Of a stretch of 64,000 nucleotides of DNA, positions 12,607 through 57,569 are shown piece by piece; position 1 is the stretch's first letter, and each line of letters opens with the position of its first letter. Position numbers and translations under genes: made by a program. The stretch comes from Lactobacillus gasseri ATCC 33323 = JCM 1131. Lineage in GTDB: Bacteria; Bacillota; Bacilli; Lactobacillales; Lactobacillaceae. The stretch covers positions 1,240,001 to 1,304,000 of the forward strand of contig NC_008530.1 of NCBI RefSeq assembly GCF_000014425.1, in the 5' to 3' direction. The notes beneath the pieces were generated by a model. That model worked only from the letters and a program-made list of their open reading frames with translations. It was not told the DNA's origin and did no database searches.

Positions 12607-12637
12607 TAAAAAAGAGTGGAGGCTCTCGACCTCTACC
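12607..12637 (-). terminator. Hairpin with T-run in the leader of the MFS gene
   Basis: A GAGG/CCTC core stem, extended by flanking pairs, is followed on the minus strand by six Ts, then the GGAG ribosome site and ATG of the MFS gene. It sits 75-100 bases after pgi, so it could end pgi transcripts. It also lies in the MFS 5' leader if that gene's promoter is at 12655-12690. Confidence 0.55.
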
Positions 12638-12645
12638 CTTTCTTT

Positions 12646-12682
12646 AACTATTAATTATAGTTAATTATAGTTATATTAATCC
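12646..12682 (-). promoter_or_regulatory. AT-rich repeat and probable promoter of the MFS gene
   Basis: The minus strand carries the direct repeat TATAATTAAC-TATAATTAA followed by TAGTTAA, giving two overlapping -10-like boxes and a small inverted repeat. A TTGATA lies about 19 bases upstream of the first TATAAT. A regulator site is possible, but no known operator consensus is recognised. Confidence 0.35.
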
Positions 12683-12710
12683 GCATACTATCAAAATATA
12701 CTAAGTAGAT

Positions 12711-37546: not shown

Positions 37547-37584
37547 AAAATGCTAGCAAACCTAAAATTTGCTAGCATTTTTTC
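37547..37584. terminator. Two-way terminator
   Basis: Fourteen-base stem AAAATGCTAGCAAA / TTTGCTAGCATTTT closing the DUF4097 gene on plus and the crcB operon on minus. Confidence 0.85.
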
Positions 37585-37946
37585 TAAATTATTAAGCCTG
37601 CTTTATATCCTGCAAAAACTAAAATTAAGCCGCCACCATAGGATAATAAAGCATAAAGAAGGAATGTTTTGTAATTATGATCCTGCCAATGAGAAAGCAA
37701 CTCAACATTTAATGTGGAAAAGGTCGTATAACCTCCCAGTACCCCGGTTCCAACTAAAGCATAAACAAATGGCGAAAAATTGCGCGAAAAAACTAGCCCT
37801 AACAAAAATGCCCCAGTAAGATTTATTAATAAAGTAGCATAAGGAAAGTTGCTAGACCAATGTTTTTTACCATAATTAGTAATTCCGTACCTAAGAATTG
37901 CTCCCCAAATTGCTCCAAAACCAGCTGTTACAAGTGTCGTTATCAT
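37584..37946 (-). CDS. crcB: Fluoride efflux channel CrcB (Fluc), copy 2
   Basis: Small four-helix membrane protein that exports fluoride as a dual-topology dimer. The 120 residues show the N-terminal GAIWGAILRYGI, the central Asn in LINLTGAFLLG and the sodium-site/Phe-box region GVLGGYTTFSTLNVE. Its ATG overlaps the preceding crcB stop by four bases. Paired different crcB genes are thought to form heterodimers in several Firmicutes. The operon is preceded by a fluoride riboswitch. Confidence 0.95.
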   Translation of the reverse strand: MITTLVTAGFGAIWGAILRYGITNYGKKHWSSNFPYATLLINLTGAFLLGLVFSRNFSPFVYALVGTGVLGGYTTFSTLNVELLSHWQDHNYKTFLLYALLSYGGGLILVFAGYKAGLII

Positions 37947-38332
37947 GCTCTTATTGCCAACTTTCTACCCAATATTTTTCCTGTAATCATTCCTAAATAA
38001 GCAAATAAAAATCCAATAAAGATTGAACTAAAGAAATATATCAGCGCCTGATTATTCATTCCGCTTTCTAATTGCTTGAATGTATCCAAATGGAAACTAG
38101 AAAAGGTTGTAAATGCTCCTACAAAACCTGTACTTAATCCTGTAACTAGCCAATCTCGTCCTTCCCTAAATTCAATAAAGAAATATGTTAGAAAGGCTAA
38201 TAAAAAGCAACCAATAATATTAGCTACAAAAGTTCCAGCCTGTGACCAAATCACATTTAAATAAGCACGTAATGCTCCTCCACAAAATGCAAATAAACCA
38301 ACACTGATATAATTTTTCAACTTTTTATTCAT
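37943..38332 (-). CDS. crcB: Fluoride efflux channel CrcB (Fluc), copy 1
   Basis: Companion of the 37584 gene, 129 residues with four membrane helices. The family marks are GGALRAYLNV, the conserved Asn in VANIIGCFLLAF and GFVGAFTTFSSFHLD. Its ATG lies inside the last codons of the HAD gene (8-base overlap), so all three genes are coupled. The two CrcB proteins differ enough in sequence to be opposite-topology subunits. Confidence 0.95.
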   Translation of the reverse strand: MNKKLKNYISVGLFAFCGGALRAYLNVIWSQAGTFVANIIGCFLLAFLTYFFIEFREGRDWLVTGLSTGFVGAFTTFSSFHLDTFKQLESGMNNQALIYFFSSIFIGFLFAYLGMITGKILGRKLAIRA

Positions 38333-39140
38333 TAAAAATCAACCTTCTTATTGCATACGCAATTCCATCTTCATTATTTGTTCGAGTAACATAATTAGCT
38401 CGCTTCTTTATCTCTAATACCGCGTTTCCCATAGCTACTTTATAAAAATCTGGAACGTCAAACATGGAAATATCATTCTTTTGATCACCAAAAATCATTA
38501 TTTCATCTTGTCTAAGATTAAGTTTCTGCGCCAATTCTTTTAAAGCGTTTCCTTTTGAAGCTTGCTTAGAATTAATTTCGATTAATGTTTTATCAGAGGT
38601 AGAAACGTTATATTTTTCAATAACTTCTTTGGGCAGGTGCCGATAAACTCTTTCCATTTCTGATGGAGCACCTGAAAACATGGCTTTTGTAAATTTTAAA
38701 TCTTTAGCTATATCTTTAAATCCACAAACCTCAATCGACATTCTAGTCAGCCAGCTTTCACGCGATAAATAATAATTAATAAAGTGATCTAATGTAATAA
38801 ATTTATCACTCACTTCAATATGAAAGTTAGCCTTCAATTGTTGAGCTATTTTTTCAAAAAAAAGGAAATCTTGATAACTTAATAATTCTTCAACTACTGC
38901 ATTTCCTTGTGCATTCAAAACTAGAGCACCATTAAAAGCCACAACATATTGATTAGGATCTTGCAGATCTAACTGATCTAAATACTCTTTAATTCCTGGA
39001 AATGGTCGCCCCGAACAAGGAACAATTTTAATTCCTAATCGAGATGCTTTTTGTAAAGCTTCCCTTGTTTTAACACTTATTTCTTGTTTATCATTCAATA
39101 AAGTTCCATCAAGGTCAACGGCAATTAATTTTGTCTTCAT
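38325..39140 (-). CDS. Cof-type HAD-superfamily phosphatase in a fluoride operon
   Basis: HAD hydrolase with a type IIB cap. Motif I is VDLDGTLLND (residues 8-17), motif II is PCSGRPF, the Lys of motif III is in the SKGNALKELA region and motif IV is MIFGDQKNDISMF. It is 271 residues from ATG 39140 (AGGAGA site). It opens the riboswitch-controlled operon with two crcB genes. Fluoride inhibits many Mg-dependent phosphoryl-transfer enzymes, so a role in fluoride tolerance is possible but inferred. A related phosphatase is at 50232. Confidence 0.9.
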   Translation of the reverse strand: MKTKLIAVDLDGTLLNDKQEISVKTREALQKASRLGIKIVPCSGRPFPGIKEYLDQLDLQDPNQYVVAFNGALVLNAQGNAVVEELLSYQDFLFFEKIAQQLKANFHIEVSDKFITLDHFINYYLSRESWLTRMSIEVCGFKDIAKDLKFTKAMFSGAPSEMERVYRHLPKEVIEKYNVSTSDKTLIEINSKQASKGNALKELAQKLNLRQDEIMIFGDQKNDISMFDVPDFYKVAMGNAVLEIKKRANYVTRTNNEDGIAYAIRRLIFNE

Positions 39141-39183
39141 CAATTTTCTCCTATGTAATCGTTCACTTTCCTTTCTATTATAC

Positions 39184-39277
39184 AAAAAAAGACGACACTA
39201 CTCCCTTATTACACATAAGAAAGTAGGCGTCGTCAGATCTTAATCGGTTAAATTGGTGAACGCCATCACCTATTATA
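39184..39277 (-). promoter_or_regulatory. Fluoride riboswitch (crcB RNA motif) with terminator
   Basis: The minus strand reads GGTGATGGCGTTCACC (39270-39255): a five-pair stem with loop TGGCGT, the conserved first hairpin of the fluoride aptamer. CTGACGACGCCTAC (39236-39223) follows, whose ACGCC pairs with the loop GGCGT as the pseudoknot. The same segment forms the 5' arm of a terminator (GACGAC..CTACT with AGTAG..GTCGTC) ending in seven Ts at 39190-39184. Ligand binding should therefore let transcription into the HAD-crcB-crcB genes. It begins 17-24 bases after the glmM stop. Confidence 0.9.
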
Positions 39278-39293
39278 ATTTAATAAAGACAGT

Positions 39294-40649
39294 TTACTTT
39301 GAACCCATCTCTTCTTCAACGACTTTAGCAACTTCTTCACAATACTTATCAGCTAATTCTTGTGTTGGTGCTTCAGTCATAACACGAAGTAAGCTTTGAG
39401 TTCCAGATGGACGAACAAAAATCCGTCCTTCATCGCTCAACTCTTCCTCTACCTTTTTAATAGCTTCGGTAATTCGCTTATGTTCTTTCCAGTCTTTCTT
39501 ATCTTTGACAGGAACATTGATTAAGCGTTGTGGATATTCTTTAAAGTCGCTTAATAATTCACTTAATGACTTACCAGTATCCTTCATTACGTATAATAAA
39601 TGCAATCCGGTAAGCATTCCATCACCAGTATTATGATAGTCACTGATAATAACGTGACCAGATTGTTCACCGCCTAGATTATAACCATTAGCTCTCATTT
39701 CTTCTGAAACATAACGGTCACCAACTTGAGTTCTGACATTCTTAAGGCCGCGTCTTTCTAAAGCCTTAGTAAAGCCTAAGTTACTCATTACGGTTGTAAC
39801 AATCGTATCTTTCTTTAAACGGCCATGATCGGCAAGATAGGAACCAATTACATACATAATATGGTCGCCATCAACTTCATTACCGTTTTCATCAACAGCG
39901 ATACAACGGTCAGCATCCCCATCGAATGCTAAGCCCAGTTGAGCACCTTGCTTTACAACTTCTTCTTGTAACTTTTTAGTATGAGTTGCACCTACATGAT
40001 CATTAATATTTAAGCCATTGGGATGAGTTGCGATTGTAGTAAAATCAACGCCCATATCAGCAAATAATCTTGAAATCAAAGCACTAGCTGCACCATTTGC
40101 ACCATCTACAACAACTTTAATTCCACCTAATTCTTCAGGTAAAGTATTTTCAATAAATTGCAAGTACTTTGAAGCACCTTCGTGGTAATTAGTTACAGTA
40201 CCTAAGCCTTCAGCTGAAGGACGTGGAAGCTTATCTTCTGGTGCATCAATTAATTTTTCAATTTCTTCTTCTTTAGCATCAGATAGTTTCAAACCATCAC
40301 TACCAAAGAACTTAATTCCATTATCTTCAACTGGATTATGAGATGCTGAAATTTGAACCCCAGCATCTGCACCTTGAGCACGAACTAAGTAAGAAAGGCC
40401 CGGTGTTGTAATCACACCAACTTCTAAAACTTCAATTCCGACGGAAAGTAAACCAGAAATCAATGCATACTCTAACATTTGTCCAGAAATACGAGTATCG
40501 CGTGAAACTAATACTTTCGCTCTTTCTCCATCTTTTTTATCTTTTGTAAGAACATATCCTCCATCACGACCTAATTTAAAAGCCATTTCTGGAGTTAAGC
40601 CAGCATTAGCAACCCCCCGTACACCATCTGTTCCAAAATATTTAAGCAT
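39294..40649 (-). CDS. glmM: Phosphoglucosamine mutase
   Basis: Converts glucosamine-6-phosphate to glucosamine-1-phosphate for UDP-GlcNAc synthesis. The phospho-serine loop [12 protein letters not shown] is near residue 100, the metal loop [11 protein letters not shown] near 240, the sugar loop GGEQSGHVI near 325 and the phosphate-binding [12 protein letters not shown] near the end. It is 451 residues. It is the third gene of the conserved cdaA-cdaR-glmM operon. GlmM is known to bind and inhibit CdaA in several Firmicutes. Confidence 0.97.

Positions 40650-56228: not shown

Positions 56229-57569
<1,341 letters not shown>

Follow-up and report, generated by a model that had tools for sequence, protein, structure and literature searches.

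In the fluoride riboswitch class, the mutual exclusion of a terminator and a pseudoknot is the published mechanism of switching (PMC11077080). HAD genes are often associated with these riboswitches, and a review has proposed that they counteract the inhibition of phosphoryl transfer (PMC11139923). On the side of export, rapid efflux through the twin Flucs of Lactobacillus acidophilus requires both of them together (PMC3755343). The locus described here lies in a stretch of 64,000 nucleotides of Lactobacillus gasseri ATCC 33323 (contig NC_008530.1, positions 1,240,001 to 1,304,000; hereafter the window), in which a sequence-only reading had placed a fluoride riboswitch between glmM and three genes, a HAD phosphatase gene followed by two crcB genes. 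No precedent for a glmM-HAD-crcB arrangement was found in the literature that was searched.

A covariance-model search of the window, the check that the sequence-only reading had itself proposed, returned a match to the Rfam fluoride riboswitch model RF01734 on the minus strand in the gap between glmM and the HAD gene (Table 1). The match spans the full model (positions 1-64) and scores 50.5 bits, where the cut-off is 34, with an E of 4.9e-11 for the window; a permissive rescan left the score unchanged. The hairpin and the loop-to-tail pseudoknot that had been drawn from the letters were both present, and both were paired in 22 of 22 sequences from the genus (100% of cells). One pair of the pseudoknot is A-U in 14 of these sequences and G-C in the other 8, one pair of P1 is either U-A or C-G, and a G-U pair occurs in the pseudoknot of one group of relatives. 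Sliding the partner strand, as a control on the same 22 sequences, resulted in much lower pairing. It should be noted that pair counts were used for P1 and the pseudoknot only, the short third helix, which was mis-registered, being left out. As far as its sequence goes, the switch is confirmed as an ordinary member of the known fluoride riboswitch class. Elsewhere in the window, an emrB-Lactobacillus RNA (RF02971) was detected at 12633-12707 on the minus strand with 68.8 bits.

Table 1. Features of the glmM-HAD-crcB locus, in window coordinates.
Feature	Position	Strand	Basis or remark
glmM	39294..40649	-	Stop codon ~24 nt ahead of P1; read-through transcripts probably come from here
Fluoride riboswitch aptamer (RF01734)	39217..39279	-	Covariance-model match
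P1 hairpin GGTGA-TGGCGT-TCACC	39255..39270	-	Sequence, pair counts
Pseudoknot 5' strand GGCGT	39264-39260	-	Inside the P1 hairpin loop
Pseudoknot 3' strand ACGCC	39226..39230	-	Doubles as part of the terminator 5' arm
Intrinsic terminator	39184..39234	-	Hairpin 39234-39191 and T7 39190-39184; expression platform, probably also the glmM terminator
Conserved TTTTTTGTATAAT, with TATAAT 39182-39177	39177..39189	-	Probable -10 of a HAD promoter; no recognisable -35
AGGAG ribosome-binding site of the HAD gene	39148..39152	-	Sequence
Cof-type HAD-IIB phosphatase, 271 aa	38325..39140	-	Profile matches; motifs DLDGT, SGR, GDQKND
crcB1, Fluc subunit, 129 aa	37943..38332	-	Profile match; GFVGAFTTFS
crcB2, Fluc subunit, 120 aa	37584..37946	-	Profile match, NCBIfam NF010816 above cut-off; GVLGGYTTFS
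Inverted repeat ATGCTAGCAAA/TTTGCTAGCAT	37550..37578	-	Between the convergent crcB2 and DUF4097 genes; by eye, not scan-scored; probable operon end

The terminator, like the aptamer, was found as it had been read from the letters: its hairpin takes in the 3' strand of the pseudoknot, making terminator and pseudoknot mutually exclusive, and runs into exactly seven Ts. Folding of the leader gives -33.6 kcal/mol (z -4.9), a stability that none of 200 shuffles reached; the terminator dominates this fold, which five relatives share. The leader would thus act as a transcriptional ON switch. Without fluoride, the nascent leader is predicted to rearrange, and pairing of GACGACGCC with GTGTCGTC farther downstream would form the terminator, break the pseudoknot, and stop RNA polymerase. 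Termination in the fluoride-free state would also supply the 3' end of the glmM message, a second role for the hairpin that the sequence-only reading had thought probable and that is supported here by inference. With Mg-fluoride bound, the pseudoknot would persist, the terminator would fail, and the polymerase would run on into HAD, crcB1, and crcB2. That the terminator fold is stronger than the secondary structure of the aptamer alone, and that one group of relatives carries the G-U pair noted above, could also be expected of a riboswitch that has decayed and by now serves only to terminate glmM transcripts. Such decay is highly improbable, as the conserved positions of the aptamer are kept at 50.5 bits and complementarity in the pseudoknot has been maintained through base changes in every sequence. 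The ON switch remains the preferred reading of the leader.

The coordinates of the three genes behind the switch agree with the coupling described earlier, with overlaps of 8 bases (HAD/crcB1) and 4 bases (crcB1/crcB2). The first gene product matches Pfam Hydrolase_3 (PF08282; E 3.8e-60, 204.2 bits against a cut-off of 20.9) and exceeds the cut-off of TIGR00099 (194.5 against 137 bits), and falls short of the equivalog for YidA-type sugar phosphatases, NF007806 (252.8 against 273 bits); its nearest solved structures are 3MPO and YidA 1RKQ. The two further products are indeed different CrcB proteins (Pfam CRCB, PF02537; E 7.8e-22 and 8.2e-25; 78 and 87.6 bits against 32.9), both with the G..G..TTFS signature. 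By analogy with the L. acidophilus pair, crcB1 and crcB2 likely encode the two subunits of a heteromeric channel, which would let fluoride out of the cell.

In 14 riboswitch loci of the genus in which crcB comes first, a sigma-A-like promoter is found upstream of the aptamer (mean 9.5 of 12 matches, against 7.7 in shuffles) and ends 16-20 nt before P1. By comparison, no promoter above chance was recognisable upstream of the aptamer in the ten loci with a HAD gene, the window included, where the best match averages 7.5 of 12 against 7.3 in shuffles. Only some tens of bases separate the glmM stop codon from the aptamer in these loci, and the spacer is poorly conserved. Since no upstream promoter is recognisable, the switch probably gates read-through from glmM, and the aptamer would then control transcripts that arrive from glmM and its upstream genes. 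Lack of a consensus match still leaves room for a weak or non-canonical promoter inside glmM.

Past the terminator, the leader carries a TATAAT that is kept in 10 of 10 riboswitch loci, as part of the invariant TTTTTGTATAATAG. An exact TATAAT also stands no more than 65 nt before the start codon of 46 of 57 first HAD genes that have no switch, and of 0 of 12 second HAD genes in tandem, where about 5% would be expected by shuffling; the 1.89-Mb genome has only two copies of the longer TTTTTTGTATAAT. Across the genus (L159-L218), a hairpin abuts TTTTTGTATAAT before the HAD gene. In most species it is terminator-like (z < -2 in 38 of 51); its sequence differs between groups, and some of these hairpins keep a G-U pair, as would be expected of a hairpin formed in RNA. 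The riboswitch terminator occupies the same slot as this older glmM/glmS terminator, directly upstream of the conserved TTTTTGTATAAT. The TTTTTGTATAAT element has the look of a promoter that was resident before the HAD gene and that escapes control by the switch. Promoter activity of the TATAAT is an uncertain hypothesis in view of its unclear -35: at a spacing of 16-18 nt, no -35 above chance was found (2.78 matches against 2.58 in shuffles), and part of the conservation could stem from the T-tract of the neighbouring terminator. If the promoter is real, the switch may add read-through from glmM to a basal, riboswitch-independent expression of HAD-crcB, rather than being its sole control. The earlier description of a switch "driving" the operon is qualified by the conserved -10-like element past its terminator. 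A CcpA (cre) site, AGTGAACGATTACA, was considered between the -10 element and the HAD gene and was rejected; such matches are about as common in the window as chance predicts (87 against 75.6 expected), and the candidate is not found at that place in other species. In eight of the ten riboswitch loci (L063-L074), about 11 extra bases, ATGCATTTTTT-like, separate the T-run from GTATAAT; these bases are missing from the window and L061.

A self-contained switch would instead be transcribed from its own non-consensus promoter in the 3' end of glmM, with the TATAAT block being only terminator-proximal sequence. For this, a candidate can be named: in the window and one close relative, TTGAAG-17-TAAACT (8 of 12 matches) lies 20 nt before P1 and would start transcription just before the aptamer. 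The other eight loci, however, do not retain it, and shuffles yield matches just as good. Moreover, species with no hairpin ahead of the TATAAT block still keep the block (L167, L185-L187, L189, L192, and L193), and it is absent before second HAD genes in tandem. We regard such a self-contained arrangement as somewhat unlikely, and continue with a switch that is fed by read-through from glmM.

The distribution of the HAD gene was followed in surveys with RF01734, in which matches were found in 69 of 301 Lactobacillaceae genomes, 27 of 75 genomes of the genus Lactobacillus, and 96 of 399 genomes of the class Bacilli. A total of 170 riboswitch loci were examined besides that of the window, some of those from the class with only ~1.5 kb of flank. 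CrcB (47 loci), enolase (39), and P-type ATPases (27) are frequent neighbours in the Lactobacillaceae set. A Cof-type HAD downstream of the switch was found only in the clade of the window, at ten loci including the window itself; two weak matches to the HAD profile (L148 and L154) start at the edge of the locus, on the upstream side of the switch. Genes for HAD proteins in fluoride riboswitch operons are not new to the literature (PMC11139923), and the Cof type is here confined to one clade.

Without regard to the switch, nearly all of the ~70 Lactobacillus species with glmM have a Cof HAD gene right after glmM(-glmS), and among them only one clade of ten species has a switch before it. In ten species without a switch, the Cof HAD adjoins the crcB pair or lies within ~0.6 kb of it (L159, L160, L162, L167, L168, L173, L174, L176, L182, and L185), and a cmscan of eleven regions before HAD-crcB in relatives lacking the riboswitch gave no Rfam match. 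The ten HAD proteins behind a riboswitch form one clade with a support of 100/100, and nearest to it stand four relatives with glmM and HAD and no switch, three of which also have the crcB pair. As these nearest relatives carry the HAD, and mostly the crcB pair, without a switch, the simplest reading is that the switch arrived at a locus in which both already stood. Two HAD paralogues occur at the glmM locus across the genus, and the window HAD fits the second tandem copy better. It is probably this second paralogue (HAD-B), such that the slot is shared and orthology to every HAD at a glmM locus is inexact. An ortholog of the common first copy lies at 1500302 in this genome and is ~73-83% identical to first copies at glmM loci. 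Riboswitch species have no glmS between glmM and HAD; in this genome, glmS lies at 701940, 0.58 Mb away.

These observations bear on what the HAD is doing in the operon. The sequence-only reading had suggested that it may counter damage by fluoride to phosphoryl-transfer metabolism, and in its fuller form this would make the HAD a selected part of the fluoride response, one that restores phosphate or removes sugar phosphates that accumulate under inhibition of enolase and further enzymes of phosphoryl transfer. The association and proposal in the review cited above are in keeping with such a role, as is a second riboswitch in the same genome that precedes an enolase gene. Moreover, the HAD is first in the operon and under the switch in all ten riboswitch species, a retention that selection for fluoride control of the HAD would equally produce. 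Nonetheless, 14 other loci of the genus have riboswitch-crcB-crcB at other places without a HAD, the HAD accompanies none of the other Bacilli loci sampled, and many species have it next to crcB or glmM with no switch present. Selection for a role in fluoride defence is on this evidence unlikely, and the suggestion of a countermeasure is not supported, given that a Cof HAD is found at the glmM locus genus-wide. The ancestry of the locus better explains its presence than a special role in fluoride toxicity. Because the gene stands there without a switch, and other riboswitch-crcB pairs lack it, the switch probably captured a HAD gene that was already resident and is not dedicated to fluoride defence.

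The second fluoride riboswitch of this genome lies outside the window, at genome position 283109-283169 (+), with 40.1 bits (L002/L086). The frame of its enolase is broken after about codon 64 (283241-283432 and 283422-284525) and is intact in the relatives L088-L090, indicating either a pseudogene or a sequencing error. Two further enolase genes, in the window at 56283-57515 (-) and in the genome at 824709-825980, are 55% and 74% identical to the query enolase, for a total of three enolase loci in the genome, one of them in the window. In Lactobacillaceae, many fluoride riboswitches precede P-type ATPases (cluster c2, e.g., L127 and L137) that also match Pfam HAD profiles, which could inflate counts of "HAD" genes near these riboswitches. 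Others precede calcineurin-like phosphoesterases, DUF190 proteins, and MutS-domain proteins (L134, L139, L140, L150, L151, and L153).

Taken as a whole, we consider it reasonably probable that the locus holds an ON switch placed at the old glmM/glmS terminator just upstream of a resident HAD promoter that would still give basal expression independent of the switch, that it is fed by read-through, and that a sugar-phosphatase-like gene came under fluoride control by its position. A broader proposition is put forward tentatively: that a fluoride aptamer was added to an intergenic terminator already in place, that fluoride couples a presumably constitutive glmM operon to an export operon with its own basal promoter, and that a promoterless, read-through riboswitch made a housekeeping phosphatase fluoride-inducible by position. 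The read-through wiring, which we infer, would be a modest and testable novelty. Genes behind a riboswitch are routinely taken as the regulon of its ligand; here, synteny suggests the opposite for the phosphatase, namely that the phosphatase came first and the switch later. If confirmed, the locus would offer a clear natural example of a gene that belongs to a regulon by its position, and of a riboswitch that was built where a terminator already existed and that receives only read-through. The locus also warns against reading HAD counts in fluoride regulons, on their own, as evidence of function.

Relative to described systems, the locus shares P1, the loop-to-tail pseudoknot, and crcB targets with the crcB riboswitch of Bacillus cereus, and, as in the RF01734 class, its terminator shares a strand with the pseudoknot. 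It differs from switches of the B. cereus type in that no recognisable promoter directly precedes the aptamer, in its place at an intergenic terminator that follows glmM and may have a basal promoter downstream, and in having a Cof-type HAD as the first gene. The phosphatase resembles Cof-type HAD-IIB proteins (TIGR00099; YidA 1RKQ; 3MPO) in its full-length match and catalytic motifs but, unlike YidA-type sugar phosphatases, scores below the NF007806 cut-off and sits in a fluoride riboswitch operon. Lastly, crcB1 and crcB2 parallel the twin Flucs La1/La2 of L. acidophilus (PMC3755343) as a tandem homologous pair with a TTFS in each; unlike La1/La2, they are preceded by a HAD in the same operon.
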